This document shows, piece by piece, positions 2,990-42,106 of a DNA stretch of 42,427 nucleotides. The DNA comes from an uncultured Lachnospiraceae bacterium (lineage in GTDB: Bacteria > Bacillota > Clostridia > Lachnospirales > Lachnospiraceae), in contig CACWHK010000013.1 of NCBI GenBank assembly GCA_902760755.1, positions 1-42,427 on the forward strand, read 5' to 3'. Under the pieces are notes generated by a model, which was not told where the DNA came from, did not search any database, and saw only the letters and a list, made by a program, of their open reading frames with translations. The position numbers were made by a program, and so were the translations under genes. Numbering within the stretch: the first letter of the stretch is position 1; every line of letters begins with the position of its first letter.

Positions 2990-5116
2990 TTATAGTTTTA
3001 TCCCCAAGGATGCCAGCAGAGCTTCCGCCTCTCTCTGTAAGCGTTCCTCCTCTGCCAGGCCTTCGTCAAGTTTCTCATTCTCAGCCAGAGCGTCAAGCGC
3101 AGACCTTGCGGCACGCCATTCCTTCTCTGCTTCCGATTCTTCCTCCGCAACCGGTTCGGATGTCTCCTCTACGACCGGTTCGGGCTCCGGTTTCGCCTCT
3201 ACGACCGGTTCGGGTTCCGGTTCTACGATCGGCTCGGGCTCCGGTTCCGCGATGGGTTCCGGTTCCTCCTCTACAACCGGTTCCGGTTCTTCCTCTACAA
3301 CCGGTTCCGGCTCCGGCTCTACGATCGGCTCGGGCTCCGGTTCCTCCTCTACGACCGGTTCCGGCTCGTCCCAGGTAACAGGCTCTTCGTTTTCGAAGGT
3401 CTCCGATTCCTCTTCCAGAATCGGCCCCGGCTCGTACTCCGGCTCGATGATCGGTGTCTCTTCCACCACCGGCATCTCCTCTTCCACCGGTTCAGCCTCT
3501 GTCTTAGCTTCTATGATCGGTTCCGCCTCAAACTCCGGCTCTGCCGATTCAAAAGACGGTTCAGGAACTGCGATCTCCTCCGGTTCATCCCAGTTGATCG
3601 GTTCTTCGTCCTCGAAGCTTTCTGTTTCCTCATCGATGATCGGTTCCGGCTCGTATTCCGGCTCGATGGTCGGTGCCTCTTCTGCAACCGCCTCTACCTC
3701 CGGCTCCTCTGCCGGTTCTTCTTCGATGCTCTCCGGTTCAGGCTCCGAATCCTCAACAGGCTCCGGCTCTGCCTCCGCCACAGGTTCTTCTGCGACAGGC
3801 TCCGGTTCCTCAACAGGCTCCGGTTTCTCCTCTACGATCGGTTCCGGCTCAGGCTCCGGTTCTCCGGCAAGCTCTGCTTCCACTCTGGCCGTTTCTTCTC
3901 TGTAGACTGCTCCGAGGTTGATCAGATCCAGCGGATTCTGGTAGGCTGCCTCCTCCGTCTCATCCAGATCAGCGATCAGCTCGGATTCCGCGGCAAAACC
4001 GTCATCAAAGTCAATGCTGATCACATCCTCATACGGATTCCGGTCGGGATCCTCTTCCTGCTTCGCCGGGGCTTCCGTCGGTGCGGACGTCTCCGGTTCC
4101 TCCTTCGGAGACTCCTCAGCCTCCGCCGCAGGCTCCTGTTCTTCGATCTCCACCGTATCCTCTGCCGGTGCGTTCTCTGCCACTTCCTTCGAAGCCGCCT
4201 CTCCGGATTCCTCCGACCCGGCAGCTGTGTCCCCTTCCTCTGCAGATGACGTTTCCTCTCCCTCCGGTTTCTCCGGGGTTCCGGCCTCATCCTCTGCTTC
4301 TTCCTTCTTCTTTCGGAACTTCTTTTTCAGGAAGGATTTAAACTTCTTTTCGGTGTCCGGCTCTTCCAGGATCTCGGCATTCTCGTCCTCGATCTCTTCG
4401 TCCGTTTCCACCGGTTGTTCTTCCGAAACACTTTCGGGGTGCAGCCTCCGGTAATCCTTCCTCAGCTGCTCCTTCTCCAGTTCGCGGATCTCACTTTGCT
4501 CCGGATCCTGATCCGGTCGCTCCATGTCCGCAAACACATATAGAAGCTCTTCCGCAGATACCTTCCCGGCCAGGATCTCCTGTACCGTCTCACTGCGTGT
4601 GCTCCTGCGGAAGGTCGCCTGATAATCCGCTGCCAGCATCTCCGTGTCCGCTCCCATCAGGGTAAGGACCAGGAAGAGCTCGAAGCTCCACTCTTCATCC
4701 AGTGAGTGTGTGTAGTAGGGATCCAGGTAGTCCCGGAGCTCCTCCGGCTTTGCCCGTTTCGCCTTCTGCATCACGTACTCGATGTTCTTTTGTTCCTGTC
4801 CCTTTGCGGTGGCGTTGTACTGATCCTTATACTGCTCGGCCAGACCAAAATACCCCTGTTTCAGGTAAAATGTAATGAGTGAGAAGAGGATCCGGTTCGA
4901 CTGCGGTCCCATGATATGCGCCTTCACATACATGTTCCGCGCGTCCTTCAGGCGTCCCACATTCTCATACACCTCTCCGCAAACCCTGAGGAACTGCGGA
5001 TTCAGTGATTTTTCAAGATCCTGCGAATCCAGTATATCTACTGCCAGGCTGTATTCCCTTGCCTCAGCAAGCTCCTTGATTTTATTTACACTTGTCATAC
5101 TAAGTCCGGAGCTCAA
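2990..5116 (-). CDS. TPR-domain protein with long acidic Glu/Pro repeat region
   Basis: A 708-residue protein. Residues ~7-120 are helical TPR-like repeats (e.g. [32 protein letters not shown]), and the helices extend to ~240. Residues ~250-660 are extremely acidic and low in complexity, dominated by EPEPVVEEE-type units. A larger unit containing IEPEYEPxPI and WDEPE occurs twice. The last ~50 residues return to a charged helix. The TTG start is chosen because GAGGTG lies 7 nt upstream; the ATG six codons later would sit too far from it. No signal peptide or membrane segment is visible, so it should be cytoplasmic. It lies 24 nt downstream of the YbjQ/zinc-ribbon gene and upstream of the coiled-coil gene, so the three are probably co-transcribed. 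Function unknown; TPRs imply protein binding. Confidence 0.85.
3150..3370. repeat. Tandem repeats encoding Glu/Pro units
   Basis: Short imperfect tandem units (on the plus strand, variants of ACGACCGGTTCCGG and TCCTCCTCTAC) encode the EPEP/VVEEE stretch near the C-terminus of the TPR protein. They are coding repeats with a period that is a multiple of three, and are likely to vary in copy number between strains. Confidence 0.6.
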
Positions 5117-27682: not shown

Positions 27683-28630
27683 TCAGTTCGATGACGGCTG
27701 TAGCTTCAGCATTTCATCCATCATCGGGTCAAACTTATCGGAACGATGATCCTTGGTCCAACCGATCCGGTCCATGGCACCCTGTACAGTGTCACGAAGC
27801 GGACTGCCCTCTGAGAAGCAGATACAGCAATCGTTTGTGGAACCCTCCGGAGCCACAAAATCATCGGACGGATCCAGGGTCAGCATCTTCAGTCCCGTCA
27901 TGGAAGCAAGTGCGGACTTGGTGGTTGTAACATCAAGAATTACCATATCTGCCGATTTGTTCTGTACTGCCATAAAGCACTCTGCGGATGTCTCATAATC
28001 CGTAGCTGCCACACCGGACGGAACCTCATCCTTGTAAGGAACGTAATTGGTACCCAGCTGGGTACAGATGGTGGGGTTCTTTCCTTCAAAATCGGAAAGC
28101 TTTGTTACGGAAGCCAGCGGGCTGTCTTCCCGGACGGTTGCCACGATGGTTCTGCAATAATACGGGGATGTAAAGTCATAGCTGATATCCCGTTCCTCAC
28201 TGTAGCAGAAACCGCTCATGATACAGTCATAGGTTCCGTCCTGCATGCCCATGAAGATCGCACTCCAGTCACTCTTATAGATCTCCAGCTCCCATCCAAG
28301 CTCATCCGCGATCATCTGTGCAAGCTTTACATCATATCCATATGCGTAGCCGTCGGCATTCTTGATCTTCACGGCCTTATCACCATTTGCCACAGTCTCT
28401 TCTTCCTGTGTCCAGTTATACGGTGCATAGGCACACTCGATACCTACCTTCAGCACCTTCTTTTCACCCGCAGCCCCTTCTGTGGTTGCACCTGCAGTGG
28501 TGCTCTGAGCCTCCGTCCCTGCCGCTCCTGCGGTGGATCCGGAATCCTTTCCGCAACCTGCAAACATGGTTGTCATCATCATAGCTGCTACAAATCCTGC
28601 TGCCATTTTCTTTCTTAAGGTCTTCTTCAT
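27683..28630 (-). CDS. Amino-acid ABC transporter substrate-binding lipoprotein (family 3)
   Basis: A 315-residue exported lipoprotein. Basic N-terminus, hydrophobic core and lipobox MFAGC (Cys near residue 26), then a Ser/Thr/Gly/Ala-rich tether. The binding domain shows LKVGIECAYAPYNW, YGYDVKLAQMIADELGWELE, DWSAIFMGMQDGTYDCIMSG, ISYDFTSPYY and TQLGT, the SBP_bac_3 signatures for polar amino acids. The start is the ATG at 28630, which has GGGAGAG eight bases upstream; the GTG at 28639 overlaps that site. It presumably serves the permease/ATPase pair at 35455-37001, 7 kb away on the same strand, with the catabolic genes between them. Confidence 0.92.
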   Translation of the reverse strand: MKKTLRKKMAAGFVAAMMMTTMFAGCGKDSGSTAGAAGTEAQSTTAGATTEGAAGEKKVLKVGIECAYAPYNWTQEEETVANGDKAVKIKNADGYAYGYDVKLAQMIADELGWELEIYKSDWSAIFMGMQDGTYDCIMSGFCYSEERDISYDFTSPYYCRTIVATVREDSPLASVTKLSDFEGKNPTICTQLGTNYVPYKDEVPSGVAATDYETSAECFMAVQNKSADMVILDVTTTKSALASMTGLKMLTLDPSDDFVAPEGSTNDCCICFSEGSPLRDTVQGAMDRIGWTKDHRSDKFDPMMDEMLKLQPSSN

Positions 28631-28661
28631 AACGGTCACTCTCCCTTCGTTTTAATGTGAA

Positions 28662-28695
28662 CAAGGGCGCCTGCCAATTTTGACAGACGCCCTTG
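28662..28695 (-). promoter_or_regulatory. Leader hairpin before binding-protein gene
   Basis: Minus-strand CAAGGGCGTCTG (28684-28695) pairs with CAGGCGCCCTTG (28662-28673), a 12-bp stem with one U-G. It ends 31 nt before the lipoprotein start and lacks a U-tract. The 5' arm GGGCAAGGGCGTCTG matches the hairpin at 37049-37080 nearly base for base. Confidence 0.55.
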
Positions 28696-28775
28696 CCCGA
28701 ATGTGCTGTTTTTTTAGTGAAGTACCTGTTACATGTTGCATCTTACCCCATCTCTCATGGAAATGATTGTATAAA

Positions 28776-35454: not shown

Positions 35455-36204
35455 TTACGCCCCCTTTGCCTCCATATATCTGGAAAGAAACTCTCTTGTC
35501 CGGGGGCTCTTCGGATTGACAAAGAGCACATCCGGTGACTCGTCCTCCACCACATATCCGTCATCCATGAAGATCGTACGTGTGGAAACATTTTTGGCGA
35601 ATTCCATCTCGTGGGTCACGATGATCATGGTGAGTCCCTTCTCAGCCAGCTCCTTCATACACTTCAGGACTTCCCCCACCATCTCCGGGTCCAGCGCGGA
35701 GGTGGGTTCGTCGAACAGAAGGACCTCGGGTTCCATGCACAGTGCTCTTGCGATGGCAACCCTCTGCTTCTGTCCTCCGGAAAGCTGCGAAGGTCTCGCA
35801 TTGATATAGGCTGCCATTCCCACCTGCTTCAGACAACGGATCGCACGCTTCCAGGATTCCTCTTTCGAAAGATGCAGGATCCTTCTTGTCCCGAACATAC
35901 AGTTCTTCAAAACCGTCATGTTATTGAACAGGTTGAAGGACTGAAATACCATCCCAACCTCGGAGCGGTACTTCGAAAGCGACCGCTGCGTGTTCCGAAC
36001 CTCTACGTCATGGAACTTCACAACACCGGAGGTCGGTGTCTCCAGATGATTGATGCATCGAAGCAGTGTTGACTTGCCGGAGCCGGAGGATCCGATGATG
36101 CACACCACTTCTCCCTTTTCGATCTCAAAATCGATTTTCTTTAATACCTCATGATCGCCAAAGCTTTTTACGAGGTTATCTACCTTGATTATCGCTTCAC
36201 CCAT
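35455..36204 (-). CDS. Amino-acid ABC transporter ATP-binding protein
   Basis: A 249-residue GlnQ/HisP-type ATPase that powers uptake of polar amino acids. Walker [12 protein letters not shown]-loop FQSFNLF, signature [16 protein letters not shown], Walker [12 protein letters not shown], and H-loop VTHEM are all intact. The start is ATG 36204, six bases after AAGGAGG; the ATG at 36210 lies inside that site. It sits 11 nt behind the permease. Its binding protein is encoded far downstream, at 27683-28630. Confidence 0.95.
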
Positions 36205-36215
36205 GGCCATCCTCC

Positions 36216-37001
36216 TTATTCTCCATCCAGATACTCTGTTGCCAGCTCGTAATCCTCTCTGCCCTTCAGCTTCTTTTCGATCAGAGCAAAGATCCGGTTG
36301 AATACGAAGCAGAGAATGAAATAGATCACAGAGATCACGATATAGGATTCATAATACTTGTAGTAGGTTCCGCCGGCGGTCTTGGCTGCCAGGAACAGCT
36401 CGGACACACCGATCACATTTAATACCGAGGTCATCTTCAGGTTGTTGACGAAGGTGTTCCCCATCTCAGGGATCACGTTCTTCAGTGCCTGCGGAAGGAT
36501 CACATGGATCATGGCCCCGAAGTGGGACATGCCCATGGCCAGTGCACCTTCCTCCTGCCCTGCATCCACGGAGTTGATACCGCCGCGGACCGTCTCACCC
36601 ATATAGGCTCCGGTATTCAGTACCGTTACCAGAACACCGGCCGCAAATGTGGAGATCATGATGTCATTCTGCCGAAGTCCGTAATAGATCACCATGCCCT
36701 GTACGATCATCGGTGTATCCCGGAATACCTCAACGTAGATCATGACGATACCCTTCAGGATTACAAAGAATATCTTCTTCAGAATAAAGTCTTCCTTCTG
36801 GATCTTCGTTGTATTCACAAGGCCCACCAGAAAGCCGAGCAAAAATCCGATCAGTGTACCGAGAACCGCAACCGCCAGTGTCATCAGGGTTGCCTGAAAA
36901 AACATTCCCGCATATTTCTGTGCCAGATAATACGACCAGTCCCATATTCCGCTTGTCGCATCCGGCGTTGCAAGATCCGCTAATACCATCGCACCATACA
37001 T
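36216..37001 (-). CDS. Amino-acid ABC transporter permease (His/Glu/Gln family)
   Basis: A 261-residue inner-membrane permease with about five helices. [20 protein letters not shown] begins the domain; [12 protein letters not shown] is the family motif; [20 protein letters not shown] with [14 protein letters not shown] is the EAA loop that docks the ATPase. The start is ATG 37001, seven bases after AAGGAGG; the frame open upstream (FERDVRGEGGE) is the ribosome-site region. It is the first gene of the long cluster, behind a near-consensus promoter and a hairpin with a U-tract in its leader. Confidence 0.94.
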
Positions 37002-37038: not shown

Positions 37039-37080
37039 AAAAAAGGGAGGGTGCCTGACTATCAAGCCAGACACCCTTGC
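37039..37080 (-). promoter_or_regulatory. Leader terminator-like hairpin before ABC permease
   Basis: Minus-strand GGGTGTCTG (37068-37076) pairs with CAGGCACCC (37049-37057), and CCCTTTTTTG follows. It begins within a few bases of the predicted transcript start and ends ~40 nt before the permease. It looks like an attenuator or promoter-proximal terminator. The 5' arm GGCAAGGGTGTCTG is shared with two other leaders. Confidence 0.6.
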
Positions 37081-37089
37081 CTCAAAGTG

Positions 37090-37206: not shown

Positions 37207-38187
37207 TCAGATAAGATCATTCTGGAACCTGGACAGATGCTCATACGGGAGGATGAGGCGTCCGCGGTAGAGTCCGCAGCCGTCATTGATCAGATTGTTG
37301 TCCGCTGCGCCGAACATATTCACATCAACACGGCTAAGATCCAGCTGCTGCAGCTTCATTCCTCTCTCGTAGGCATCATCAAAGAAGATGTTCTCTCCCA
37401 CCGGGATCTCCTCTCTCCTTGCCCGCTCCTTCTCCTGCCGCTTCTCATATCCCAGATGGTTTGCCGGCCCGATCTCCGCGTTATCATCCATCTCCTTGGT
37501 CCGAAGCTGCATCTCTATGTTGCTTCGCGAGGTATTGTCAAAGAAGGAAATATGAAGGGACTTATACCCGTAATTGTTCGGCTTTTCGATATAATCCCGG
37601 TAGTACTTTCTGTAGGAGGAGTCGATGGTCATGCTCTGGGAATCCAGACCGGAAAGCTCCGGATTGAAGCCCCGTTCCTCCAGAAAGTCCGGCAGCGCGT
37701 TGGCGATCTCATACAGGTAACGGAGTTCCCGCACCTGCCTGTTTTCGTCCGGCTTTACATGACACTTGGGCAGGGATACCACGATCCTGTAGGCGATGAG
37801 GTCCTTGATCCGCCCGATCTGATCCTTGATCTCCGTCTCCGAGGGATACTCTCCGGTCATACGGTGATAGTCATAGATAAACTCAACGATATTCCCGTTG
37901 ATCTTCTCCTCCAGCCGGATCAGGGATTTGATCCTCCCCTTAAATGTAAATGCCAGGAAGGGGTATCTGTCGGCCATATACTTGTAGAATTCCCGGATCT
38001 TCTGGGACTGGGCCGTAAGGAAGTCGTTATGCTCCAGAAGCTCCAGCATCTGCAGCAGGCAGTTACTGTGCGCCAGGTCCACGCCGTTGTCATACTCAAC
38101 AGCCCCTTCCTTCAGATCCTTCAGATAGCAGTGCAGGATCTTGACCACGGTATCTCCGTTATATAAATAATCATTCAGTGATATCAT
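37207..38187 (-). CDS. RelA/SpoT-type nucleotide synthetase-domain protein
   Basis: A 326-residue protein with a (p)ppGpp-synthetase fold at ~60-255. Visible blocks are GRIKSLIRLEEKI (84-96, ATP site), KDLIAYRIVV (R134), RDYIEKPNNYGYKSLHI (197-213, GDP-stacking Tyr), and IEMQLRTKEMDDNAEIG with catalytic Glu225 and a following His. There is no hydrolase HD domain and no TGS/ACT region, so it resembles a small alarmone synthetase with an extra ~60-residue N-terminus and ~70-residue C-terminus. All synthetase residues appear intact. GGTGGAG precedes the ATG. It lies 38 nt after the PEP-synthase-like gene, giving a two-gene operon. Product could be (p)ppGpp or a related nucleotide. Confidence 0.88.
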   Translation of the reverse strand: MISLNDYLYNGDTVVKILHCYLKDLKEGAVEYDNGVDLAHSNCLLQMLELLEHNDFLTAQSQKIREFYKYMADRYPFLAFTFKGRIKSLIRLEEKINGNIVEFIYDYHRMTGEYPSETEIKDQIGRIKDLIAYRIVVSLPKCHVKPDENRQVRELRYLYEIANALPDFLEERGFNPELSGLDSQSMTIDSSYRKYYRDYIEKPNNYGYKSLHISFFDNTSRSNIEMQLRTKEMDDNAEIGPANHLGYEKRQEKERARREEIPVGENIFFDDAYERGMKLQQLDLSRVDVNMFGAADNNLINDGCGLYRGRLILPYEHLSRFQNDLI

Positions 38188-38225
38188 AATGCTCCACCTT
38201 CAATTCTTCACACATTCGGGTTCTT

Positions 38226-40808
38226 TTACAGCGTAACCAGAAGCCTCTCTTCTGTCAGGTCATAATAAAGCGTCATCTCCGAGGCGGAGCAGCCAAATAC
38301 CCTGAGGATTCCCGCATGCTCCTCCGCCGGTTTCGTGATCTCCTCCGTGATATCCCGGATCCGCTCCGGATCACTCTCAAGGATCTCCGGATGGTATGCG
38401 ATGGTATGGTTTCCTTCGAATACCGCCGTATAGAGGATTCCTGCCTCCACCAGATCCTGGAAGATATGGCTTCCGTAGCTAAGCTCCGGGATGTAGCCCG
38501 CCTTGGTCTCCGAAACCTCTGCGATCACTGAGAACTCACTGATATCCGCAAAGGTGGAAGGAACCCCCAGCTCCGGAGAAGAGGTACAGATCCGCCCCGG
38601 TGTAAGGAGCAGCAGCCGTTTTCCTTTCCCCCGGAAGTACCAGTTCACATCCGTAAGATACTTCTTCACATCATACTTCTGACGATAAGGCATGTTGTAA
38701 TACCTGACCGGATCGATATACACCACCACATCCACGGGGATCTTCCGGGAAAAGCCCATGGATACGCCCTTTGTTTCGAGAAGAACTCTTTCCTCCCGGA
38801 CATCCTCCGGGAAGTCCACCTTATCTCCGTCCTGAGTCAGCTGAAGCGGACGACACTGCAGAAGATCGACCACATAGCTTCCGTCCTGAGATAGATTGAT
38901 GGTATATTCCGTATCCACCGGATATTCGTAATGCTCCTGGATCAGGGCCAGCATATCCTGCATATCCTTCATCAGCTGCTGATTCTTCGTAAGCCCCTCA
39001 CAGGATACGAAGAGGATCTCCCGCCGCTCTCCCCGCTCCCGGAACATCCGCTCCGTATCGGAGTTGTGAGAATAAAGATTCTTCTTCTGGTAATAGGGAA
39101 ATGCATCGCTGATCTTCAGGGGATCAAAGCCCTCCACCTTCCCCGTCTCCAGGCTCACCGCATCCACGATCCGCTGGGAATACTGCTGCCGGTCCGACAT
39201 GGTGGTATGAATGATCTTCGACGGAGCATCCAGAGATACCATCCGCGGATAGGAACCGGTCCGCCGGTCCACCGCTGCCGTACCAAGACCCATGACCAGC
39301 CGGAGCATGCCGGATTCCGACTTCACATTTCCGATCCGGTAGGGGCTCATGGAGTACCCGACTCCCGCTGCACAGGGCATGAAGAAGCCCTCATACCGCG
39401 ATCCGGAGACACGCTGCACCAGGATCGCCATCTGCTCGTCCCGCTTATCCAGTCCGCGGCGCTTCCGGTAGTCCAGGGCCGAGAAGCTCATGGTGCTGGC
39501 GTATACCTCCTTGATCGCACGTTCAAATTCCTCCAGACGCTCCTCCGGAGTTCCCAGATTTCCGCAGAAGACGGATTCATACTTCCCGGCAAATGCATTT
39601 CCGAAGCCATCCTCCAGGATGGAGCTGGACCGGCAGATAAAGGGATCATTCCCGTAATAATCAATGATCCGGCGAAGCTCCGTCTCGATCCGGCTGGAGA
39701 AGCTTCCTTCCATCAGTCTCTCGGCAAACTCCTCCGCCAACGTAAAGTAGCCTTCCTCCGTTCTCTGCCGGATTCGAAGATCCCAGAACCCGTTATCCAC
39801 GATGAAGGAATAGAACACATCGGAACCGATATAGAAGGAATCATGAGGCTCCAGCCGGCTGTAGAGATCCGGGTTATGGTTTTCTATGATCTTACGTGCC
39901 AGCAGCATACCGCAGGCCTTTCCTCCGATCATTCCCGTTCCGATCAGACGTCCGTGGATCTCGAAATAATCCTCCGGCCGGAAGTTTGCCTTGATCAGCT
40001 TCCGCATGCGTTCATCCCGCGTCAGCATGATATTGCAGATCCGCGAGCAGGCGTCCGTGATATCCTCCCCGGAGAGGAACCGCCGTTTCGAGGTCTTAAA
40101 GAACCGCTCCCAGCTATCCAGATTCTGATCGATCCCGCCGAAGAGCGCCTTATTCATGATGCTGTAGAAGCGACTGACCTCCGTGCCGTCCGAAAGCACC
40201 CGGAAGCTCCCCTTTTCGGCATCCAGCGCATGGGGCTGGAACATGGTGGGGGAATACCGCTTCCACACCTTCATGGGACGGACGTAGAGCTGATCCTCCC
40301 CCTTGTAGATATCCAGGAACAGCTGCGTCGTATCCCGGATGGTGGCGATGGCATCAAAGGAATGACGCCCGCGGATCAGAGGGAAATATGCCACCGTATC
40401 CAGGATGAAGAGGTAGGGGCAGGTAAGATGGAAGAAGTCTCCCATCATAAGATCCGTGGCCCAGGCAGCCTCCAGCTCCGAGAGACAGTCAAAGACGTAG
40501 AAGGCATCCCGTCCCTCCCTCTCGATCAGATTATGAATATCCACGGTGAAGGTCTCAAACCGGTGAGACAGCTCCACTCTCTCGATCTTCAGACCTTCCC
40601 GCGGGGTAAGGATCGGTTCATGCTCCGCAAAGCGGATGTAGATCAGATTCCTCCTGTCCCGGATTGCCTGCTCGGCAAACCGCTCCGCAACAACGCGAAA
40701 CTCCTTCAGAGACGGCACCTGCCACACCACATTATCTCCCAGACGGATATACTGCAGCGCCTCATCCATCATCGGAATCCCGGATTCTGTCTTATCAAAT
40801 GCAGCCAC
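38226..40808 (-). CDS. KaiC-like domain fused to PEP/pyruvate-binding (PEP synthase-like) domain
   Basis: An 860-residue protein. Residues ~10-195 follow a KaiC/RecA-like ATPase fold (RLGDNVVWQVPS, NLIYIRFAEHEPIL, AFYVFDCLSELEAAW), but the P-loop GxxGxGKT is lost. Residues ~285-720 form a PPDK N-terminal/ATP-grasp domain: GMIGGKACGMLLARK, FICRSSSILEDGFGNAFAGKYE (Arg393, Glu399), and VDLLQCRPLQL. The last ~130 residues contain GRICTSSPELGVPSTFADIS; the phospho-His swivelling domain and PEP/pyruvate barrel of true PEP synthase are absent. The GTG at 40808 is preferred (GGGGGTGA upstream); longer frames would enter the leader hairpin. It is followed by the RelA/SpoT-type gene. Confidence 0.82.
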   Translation of the reverse strand: MAAFDKTESGIPMMDEALQYIRLGDNVVWQVPSLKEFRVVAERFAEQAIRDRRNLIYIRFAEHEPILTPREGLKIERVELSHRFETFTVDIHNLIEREGRDAFYVFDCLSELEAAWATDLMMGDFFHLTCPYLFILDTVAYFPLIRGRHSFDAIATIRDTTQLFLDIYKGEDQLYVRPMKVWKRYSPTMFQPHALDAEKGSFRVLSDGTEVSRFYSIMNKALFGGIDQNLDSWERFFKTSKRRFLSGEDITDACSRICNIMLTRDERMRKLIKANFRPEDYFEIHGRLIGTGMIGGKACGMLLARKIIENHNPDLYSRLEPHDSFYIGSDVFYSFIVDNGFWDLRIRQRTEEGYFTLAEEFAERLMEGSFSSRIETELRRIIDYYGNDPFICRSSSILEDGFGNAFAGKYESVFCGNLGTPEERLEEFERAIKEVYASTMSFSALDYRKRRGLDKRDEQMAILVQRVSGSRYEGFFMPCAAGVGYSMSPYRIGNVKSESGMLRLVMGLGTAAVDRRTGSYPRMVSLDAPSKIIHTTMSDRQQYSQRIVDAVSLETGKVEGFDPLKISDAFPYYQKKNLYSHNSDTERMFRERGERREILFVSCEGLTKNQQLMKDMQDMLALIQEHYEYPVDTEYTINLSQDGSYVVDLLQCRPLQLTQDGDKVDFPEDVREERVLLETKGVSMGFSRKIPVDVVVYIDPVRYYNMPYRQKYDVKKYLTDVNWYFRGKGKRLLLLTPGRICTSSPELGVPSTFADISEFSVIAEVSETKAGYIPELSYGSHIFQDLVEAGILYTAVFEGNHTIAYHPEILESDPERIRDITEEITKPAEEHAGILRVFGCSASEMTLYYDLTEERLLVTL

Positions 40809-40840
40809 GCTGTCACCCCCATTCTCCCATATAACAAAAC

Positions 40841-40876
40841 AAAAAAGGGCGCCAATATCTTTCGATATCGACGCCC
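40841..40876 (-). promoter_or_regulatory. Leader terminator-like hairpin before PEP/RelA operon
   Basis: Minus-strand GGGCGTCGATATC (40864-40876) pairs with GATATTGGCGCCC (40847-40859) across a GAAA tetraloop, and six T follow. The stem is 13 bp with U-G wobbles. It ends 32 nt before the GTG start. It has the same GGCAAGGGCGTC 5' arm as the leaders at 28662 and 37049. Confidence 0.6.
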
Positions 40877-40895
40877 TTGCCTTCATCTATAAATA

Positions 40896-41315: not shown

Positions 41316-41966
41316 TCACCGCCTCAGATATTCAGATGATACCGGAAACTCAAAATAGGTATCCGGATACGGTTCATCCTTCAGGGAGAAGTGCCACCAC
41401 TCAACACTGAGGGGTAAAAAACCGTTCCGTACCATGGCACGCTGCAGGATCATCCGGTTCTCATACTGCGCCTCCGTGATCCCCTTATAATCCGGATGAG
41501 ACACCTCACTGAAAAGATCAAAGGGGCTTCCCATATCCAGCTCCTTCCCCGTCTTCATGTCCAGGAGCGTCAGATCCACGGCACTTCCCCTGCTATGGCT
41601 GGACTGCCTGGCTATGTAGCCCTTCAAAAAAAGCTCCTGCTTCTGCAGATCCGGATAGAAGTAAGGCTTCATCCGGATATCCTGATCCTCGATCCCCCAC
41701 AGCACAAAATGCTTCACGGCACAGGCCGGACGATAGGCATCAAAAACCTTCAGCCGGTACCCCTGCACAAAGAGCTCGTTGCTCACGGCCTTCAGTGCCC
41801 GGGCCGCTTCCTTCGTCAGAAGAGCGCAAGGCTCCTCATAGCCGTCAATTCTGTCCCCGATAAAGTTGTAGGTGGAGAAGTATCGGATCTCCTGAATAAT
41901 ATGCGGAACATAATCCGACAGGAGAACAAATCCTGAGGAATCCATTTTTATATCATTACCTGCCAT
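41316..41966 (-). CDS. D-alanyl-D-alanine dipeptidase (VanX/DdpX family)
   Basis: A 216-residue zinc dipeptidase. Zinc-binding SSHSRGSAVDLTLLD (SxHxxGxAxD) and EWWHF supply His, Asp, catalytic Glu and His; VFDAYRP has the conserved Arg. VanX homologues hydrolyse free D-Ala-D-Ala. Without vanA/vanH genes nearby, a role in peptidoglycan dipeptide recycling is more likely than glycopeptide resistance. GGGAGG lies before two consecutive ATGs (41969 and 41966); spacing favours the second. The start overlaps the stop of an upstream membrane-protein remnant, showing it was once a downstream operon partner. No signal peptide. Confidence 0.9.
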   Translation of the reverse strand: MAGNDIKMDSSGFVLLSDYVPHIIQEIRYFSTYNFIGDRIDGYEEPCALLTKEAARALKAVSNELFVQGYRLKVFDAYRPACAVKHFVLWGIEDQDIRMKPYFYPDLQKQELFLKGYIARQSSHSRGSAVDLTLLDMKTGKELDMGSPFDLFSEVSHPDYKGITEAQYENRMILQRAMVRNGFLPLSVEWWHFSLKDEPYPDTYFEFPVSSEYLRR

Positions 41967-42106
41967 CATCCTTCCTCCCTCTTCAAAGCGTCCGTCTGCA
42001 GCTTATGCTCCATCAGTATATAACCGATAAAATGGAGCAGCGCAAAGGCTATACCTATGGGATATGCGATCTCCTGACGGATCCCGAAGCCTTTCCGAAT
42101 CGGATG
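41966..42106 (-). pseudogene. 3' remnant of a membrane protein
   Basis: Forty-six codons in a frame that ends by overlapping the vanX start (GGATGATGG): IRQEIAYPIGIAFALLHFIG then YILMEHKLQTDALKREEG. A membrane helix with a charged tail is clear. Upstream the frame meets a TAG (42107-42109), and no start or ribosome site is present. The 5' part of the gene is missing; family not identifiable. Confidence 0.5.

Follow-up and report, generated by a model that had tools for sequence, protein, structure and literature searches.

Transcription antitermination by ANTAR-domain proteins follows a recognisable RNA rule: the antiterminator is a hairpin whose hexaloop carries A1 and G4 and which overlaps an intrinsic terminator (PMC3369931). 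A link between ANTAR proteins and nitrogen in Clostridia is already known, since C. acetobutylicum possesses nitR, an antiterminator of ammonia assimilation, and C. thermocellum carries an ANTAR gene within its GS-GOGAT cluster, both as recounted in PMC4676874. In E. coli, NtrC activates relA under nitrogen stress (PMC4066584). Here we describe a two-gene operon of an uncultured Lachnospiraceae bacterium, in which a PPDK-like protein and a RelA/SpoT-type synthetase (REL) are encoded behind a leader of the ANTAR kind. The operon lies in a stretch of 42,427 nt, called the window below, which is an entire contig (C13, CACWHK010000013.1) of an assembly of 2.58 Mb in 78 contigs (GCA_902760755.1). 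Computation revealed the leader, its covariation, the regulon to which it belongs and the intact synthetase residues of REL. The reading favoured as a whole, that nitrogen limitation induces the alarmone synthetase REL by ANTAR-type antitermination, appears moderately probable.

40838..40886, minus strand: leader of the PPDK-REL operon, whose hexaloop hairpin (GGC-AAGGGC-GUC and outer pairs) overlaps an intrinsic terminator
38226..40808, minus strand: PPDK-like protein, 860 aa, GTG start, first gene of the operon
37207..38187, minus strand: REL, RelA/SpoT-type synthetase of 326 aa with no HD hydrolase domain, second gene of the operon

The locus shares with the EutV, NasR and AmiR regulons, as portrayed in PMC3369931, the A1/G4 hexaloop on an intrinsic terminator, an ANTAR response regulator in the genome and the nitrogen targets P-II, amt, gln and glt. 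Unlike in those regulons, no P1 hairpin was seen, and a RelA-like synthetase and a KaiC/PPDK-like protein are among the targets. The main text of that paper (Ramesh 2012) contains none of the words ppGpp, pyruvate and Lachno-, and no link between an ANTAR regulon and REL or the PPDK-like protein was found among the listed matches when open-licence texts were searched by title and abstract opening. As in the NtrC-relA system, a nitrogen-stress regulator is proposed to raise an alarmone synthetase gene, but by transcription antitermination instead of the sigma-54 promoter activation used in E. coli.

The leader and its regulon

The 5' arm of the terminator hairpin of the operon can alternatively form a small hairpin with the loop AAGGGC, and the overlap makes the two structures mutually exclusive. 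A scan of the collected loci for a hexaloop with an overlapping terminator gave 49 distinct matches (a few of them intragenic), whereas three block shuffles averaged 4.3. The alignment of 29 leaders showed an invariant C-AA-x-G-xx-G and the A1/G4 hexaloop in all 29, the leaders having been partly chosen for the loop. Across these leaders pairing was 92.4% in the hexaloop stem, which had 32 double-change cells, and 96.8% in the terminator, which had 74; not one of 500 shuffles attained either value for either structure. Changes on both sides were found in 8 of the 13 terminator pairs, a number attained by only 4 of 500 shuffles, and sliding the partner positions lowered both pairing and the covariation score. 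A search of Rfam that allowed E values up to 5 turned up six matches; none of them reached the gathering score or coincided with a leader. A promoter-like site (at least 9/12) lay directly upstream of the element in 30 of 44 leaders, with 3.3 expected, and ended 2–16 nt (mostly 5) before it; it was missing in two leaders, that at position 28656 of the window and that of glnA in the same genome. The transcript would therefore begin at P2 wherever this promoter holds.

A covariance model of the leader (R1) was used to delineate the regulon. At E<1e-4 it found eight sites in the genome of the window, three of them in the window itself, and the best match was the leader of the PPDK-REL operon (47.3 bits), which is itself a training sequence. 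Also among the training sequences are the sites before amt-PII, an SBP_bac_3 lipoprotein and an amino-acid ABC permease; those outside the training set precede glnA-ANTAR, gltB-gltD, pyrG-purF and a FAD/2Fe-2S operon. The element before the FAD/2Fe-2S oxidoreductase operon (L190:3694-3742) scores on both strands, and a possible target there is an amino-acid oxidase. Three weaker matches comprise one before a Na/alanine symporter (E 0.006), a reverse-strand copy and a probably spurious one. GltD (cluster c4, behind gltB) was named by eye and position, and the ABC ATPase listed below, like ArgD at a locus mentioned later, by eye; none of them came from Pfam. The remaining members within the window are as follows.

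37040..37086, minus strand: second leader, before an amino-acid ABC permease and ATPase, with promoter-like TTGACG-17-TAAAAT directly upstream
36216..37001, minus strand: BPD_transp_1 permease, a separate transcription unit of the same regulon, start at ATG 37001
35455..36210, minus strand: ABC ATPase after the permease
28656..28702, minus strand: third leader, of the same kind, before a family-3 solute-binding lipoprotein
27683..28582, minus strand: SBP_bac_3 solute-binding protein of the same regulon, downstream of the third leader

The permease start was set at ATG 37001 because a start at TTG 37040 would touch the leader.

The genome encodes one ANTAR protein, a response regulator, whose gene stands directly behind glnA and is flanked on the other side by amt, with a leader before both. 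Among 120 genomes of the family, R1 was detected under strict filters in 95 and ANTAR in 105; both were present in 93, ANTAR only in 12, R1 only in 2 and neither in 13 (p=5e-9), a hand count in which five unlisted R1-negative genomes were assigned by elimination and kinship and incomplete assemblies were left uncorrected. The best R1 locus was also taken from 29 other genomes, one per genome, and 22 of these loci lay directly before GSIII (13), AsnB (5), Amt (2), PurF (1) or CP-ATP-grasp (1). Four preceded the PPDK-like gene (3) or REL (1), all four being training loci and hence non-independent, and three were left unassigned, one of them with Amt more than 1 kb on.

That the leader hairpin confers conditional expression, as the original prediction had proposed, is strongly supported by the covarying hexaloop and terminator and by the R1 regulon. 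The specific reading is ANTAR-type antitermination: the type of leader, its covariation and the co-occurring nitrogen genes and ANTAR together place the PPDK-REL pair in an ANTAR-type nitrogen regulon. The ANTAR protein is likely the factor that reads the leader, and nitrogen shortage is, with similar likelihood, the signal.

Features of REL and of the PPDK-like protein

The original prediction described a KaiC/PPDK-like protein of 860 residues without a P-loop, encoded 38 nt before a hydrolase-less RelA/SpoT synthetase, and the open reading frames, the domains and the REL alignment bear this out. All 17 synthetase positions checked were invariant in 20 of 20 aligned REL sequences, the one from the window included, so the loss of key residues that the prediction had named as a possible objection did not occur; the assignment of catalytic residues among these positions is our assumption. 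In Pfam only PF04607 reached its cut-off, with a profile match limited to the second half of the protein, and no hydrolase or C-terminal regulatory domain was recognised. The top structural matches were Rel and small alarmone synthetases (SAS), at roughly 16–28% identity in the better alignments. REL thus has in common with RelP, RelQ and RelSeq the synthetase fold, the checked residues and the lack of an HD domain, but differs from them in its low identity, its length of 326 aa, its N-terminal part, which is long and helical, and a strongly conserved segment at the C-terminus (CGLYRGR-LP-EHLS), modelled with low confidence. Because the synthetase residues are kept, a signalling role of REL is plausible, and its product is probably (p)ppGpp or a close relative. 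The RelA_SpoT-domain proteins of this 2.6-Mb genome number five (on contigs C2, C6, C8 and the window): frames of 762 and 748 aa, two of about 225 aa on C2, and REL.

The PPDK-like protein consists of a KaiC-like fold (residues 1–220), a PPDK/PEP-synthase ATP-grasp part (about 257–656) and a C-terminal region (657–860). An alternative frame of 886 aa opens at ATG 40886; the GTG at 40808 is the likely start, because that ATG lies within the attenuator and many orthologue alignments begin at residues 22–27. The ATP-grasp motif residues (K, RSSS-ED, D-E, Q-R), which it shares with PEP synthase/PPDK and with rifampin phosphotransferase, were kept in 44 of 44 sequences, and a Walker A P-loop was found in none of the 44. 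From the known enzymes it differs in its KaiC-like N-terminus and in having no sequence-recognisable His domain and no detected PEP/pyruvate TIM-barrel: PF01326 was the sole Pfam family, and only about 200 aa remain after the ATP-grasp part. A His swivel domain was unsupported by sequence, since comparison of the C-terminus with the His domains of PEP synthases gave a profile probability of 0.07% and the Pfam search of this region no match; structure comparison spoke weakly for it. A short form of about 620–670 aa, without the KaiC-like N-terminus, occurs in six genomes (G057, G085, G104, G136, G148 and G152), and G104, G136 and G148 have a long form elsewhere in the same genome.

Co-occurrence and genomic context of the two genes

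Distribution was counted by hand in 200 family genomes, the genome of the window included. A REL orthologue (>170 bits) was present in 24 of them and the PPDK-like protein in 43; the latter count takes in fragments and leaves out short forms of about 640 aa (the sole form in G057, G085 and G152), a match in G033 at 29% identity and matches below 30 bits. In the 199 genomes other than that of the window, both genes occurred in 8, the PPDK-like gene only in 34, REL only in 15 and neither in 142 (Fisher p=0.10). REL was accordingly missing from 34 of 42 PPDK-like-bearing genomes and the PPDK-like protein from 15 of 23 REL-bearing ones. In a second set of 44 PPDK-like genomes reached through other loci, REL was found in 9 and missing from 35. 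This set overlaps the family sample in part; the L075 contig, for instance, equals G160:C4 in length.

The two genes were adjacent in two of the eight co-bearing family genomes, G112 (same order) and G103 (reverse order). Of the nine in the second set, G200 (L066) and G241 (L109, with a truncated junction), both near relatives of the window, had them adjacent; in four rumen metagenome-assembled genomes (G202, G203, G209, G222) they marked opposite ends of a single divergent cluster, and in G201, G231 and G236 they lay apart. The adjacency whose lack in other genomes would, by the original prediction's own test, have refuted it is seen in G112, G103, L066 and L109 and not in most genomes examined; it is more frequent than expected by chance, though not general. 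An obligate partnership was rejected as a general rule, given the p value for co-occurrence and adjacency in few lineages. At L109/L172 (around position 3402), residue 857 of the PPDK-like protein runs straight into residue 61-62 of REL, which may represent a fusion, a deletion or an assembly error.

Context was examined in long-flank loci, with PPDK-like matches of short or no flank set aside and genes called by a codon-scored caller and tblastn. R1 lay within 400 nt upstream of the PPDK-like gene in 22 of 59 loci; in a further 19 the gene followed, on the same strand, carB (5), purF (2), amt (2), the gene behind gltB (9) or REL (1), and 18 had neither R1 nor such a neighbour. Among 29 non-redundant REL loci (identical copies removed, kin retained, and copies lacking a complete start at L109/L172, L132 and L133 not counted), eight were in R1-headed units: three directly, three behind the PPDK-like gene and two at the end of a CP-ATP-grasp-led operon. 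Two more (L168, L171) had REL directly behind glnA-ANTAR, the L171 copy being split into two frames. Together with the REL loci outside nitrogen operons considered below, these counts make the nitrogen link strong for the PPDK-like gene and partial for REL.

Individual loci illustrate the range of settings. One (L107:194-14635) comprises carA, one other gene, R1-carB, the PPDK-like gene, R1-amt, R1-GSIII and R1-gltB, with two tandem hexaloop-terminator elements before amt, and another (L103) has argJ, argB-like and argD-like genes (by eye) before R1 and the PPDK-like gene. In rumen metagenome-assembled genomes an operon with an R1 leader at its head (L164:6369-16680, L165, L166, L167) encodes CP-ATP-grasp, Alpha-E, a transglutaminase and two AstE/AspA-like proteins, followed by citrate synthase, IDH, aconitase and REL (IDH and aconitase were not seen in L167); the PPDK-like gene is divergent from it and has its own R1. 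A nitrogen-regulated system for amide ligation or nitrogen storage is one possibility for this operon. At L118:5938-5985 an R1 leader stands after the gene that follows REL and before a purF-like/carA-like pair (by eye), and REL itself is without a leader of its own. In the cultured relatives Lachnospiraceae bacterium AB2028 and V9D3004 the PPDK-like gene has an R1 element; AB2028 carries two REL genes, and in V9D3004 the REL match falls into two pieces. Just upstream of the PPDK-REL operon in the window, a VanX-like D-Ala-D-Ala dipeptidase gene occupies 41316-41969 on the minus strand (PF01427; NCBIfam NF033115 at 198.8 bits, short of its cut-off, 320). A defence system at the locus was considered and rejected, PADLOC giving a single weak match.

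Proposed model and alternatives

In the model, the PPDK-like gene and REL would form one transcription unit within a nitrogen-assimilation regulon of the ANTAR type. As long as nitrogen is plentiful, transcription would halt at the leader terminator just past the promoter. When nitrogen (probably glutamine or ammonium) runs short, the ANTAR response regulator encoded behind glnA would hold the hexaloop hairpin, the terminator would not form, and the operon would be transcribed along with glnA, amt-PII, gltBD, pyrG-purF and the amino-acid uptake genes. REL could then serve as an inducible alarmone synthetase and slow growth during nitrogen stress. The PPDK-like protein, usually found without REL in the genomes examined, may be a nitrogen-response ATP-binding protein in its own right and may here tune REL or a shared target.

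A number of observations weigh against this model. R1 was trained on leaders selected near PPDK-like and REL genes, which makes the PPDK/REL matches at training loci circular, and the limits of the ANTAR/R1 hand count bear on its p value. Changes on both sides in 3 of 5 hexaloop-stem pairs were reached by 364 of 500 shuffles and are not above chance; the promoter-like site of the PPDK-REL operon scores just 7/12; and R1 was present in 2 of 15 ANTAR-negative family genomes. On the side of REL, both R1 and a recognised nitrogen operon are missing at 19 of the 29 loci, R1 was not found ahead of glnA-ANTAR-REL in L168 and L171, and the genome holds four further RelA_SpoT-domain proteins. Finally, no excess of P1 was seen, a hexaloop of any kind occurring within 70 nt upstream in 11 of 44 leaders against 8.8 expected, whereas the eut system (eutP) requires both hairpins, P1 and P2 (PMC3369931). 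This last point, the lack of an Rfam match at the leader and the 12 ANTAR-positive genomes without R1, with 2 showing the reverse, would suit a nitrogen-linked attenuator whose reader is a small molecule or an RNA-binding protein other than ANTAR. Such a reader is nevertheless improbable: the ANTAR signature is an A1/G4 hexaloop that has a closing C-G pair and overlaps the terminator, the ANTAR and R1 co-occurrence is strong, the ANTAR gene sits between glnA and amt with a leader on both, and the minimal ANTAR binding motif is one hexaloop (PMC8934654).

The roles of the two proteins allow other interpretations as well. A toxic or defence-type RelA-fold enzyme (toxSAS/CapRel-like) in place of a housekeeping alarmone synthetase is unlikely, as structural Z reached 12.4 for Rel and 11.0 for SAS against 9.3 for CapRel, and REL sits in glnA-ANTAR, PPDK-like and citrate-branch operons. 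The PPDK-like protein might be a dikinase of the rifampin-phosphotransferase type, with a divergent C-terminal His swivel domain and some nitrogen metabolite as substrate. In VIA-align, which covers Foldseek matches only, 380 residues aligned with rifampin phosphotransferase (model 230-808) and 369 with PEP synthase (model 257-860), against 286 for the ATP-grasp part alone (model 257-656), so that the matches extend past this part, and His781 of the C-terminal region is invariant in 44 of 44 sequences. The structural signal for a His domain is weak, Gly at His+9 is present in just 24 of 44, and the profile and Pfam results on the C-terminus are negative; on balance the dikinase is a tentative and rather doubtful proposal. 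Somewhat less likely still is the dedicated two-protein signalling module of the original prediction, in which one partner modifies or controls the other. The 38-nt operon spacing, the recurrent adjacency in G112, G103 and near relatives and the placement at opposite ends of one cluster in the four rumen genomes favour it, as does a precedent in Caulobacter, where phosphotransfer controls the alarmone level during glutamine deprivation (PMC4848567). The frequent occurrence of either gene without the other argues against it, and common regulon membership by itself accounts for the clustering. The signalling part of that prediction is plausible for REL, while mutual action of the two proteins is weakly indicated.

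The favoured reading, induction of REL by ANTAR-type antitermination under nitrogen limitation, gives a physiological context to a widespread KaiC/PPDK-like protein and to a distinct RelA-like family, and the many natural one-hairpin leaders offer a test of whether ANTAR antitermination truly requires two hairpins. A far-reaching version, which we regard as improbable, is a new Clostridia nitrogen-to-alarmone pathway, in which a one-hairpin ANTAR leader would switch on both the synthetase and an ATP-grasp phosphotransfer protein of KaiC-like shape, the latter sensing nitrogen or glutamine status and directly setting synthetase activity, replacing the roles of NtrC-relA and PTS-Ntr-SpoT in Proteobacteria. 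The favoured reading points to a way in which anaerobic Clostridia of the gut and rumen might couple nitrogen shortage to the stringent response through RNA antitermination, not through sigma-54.

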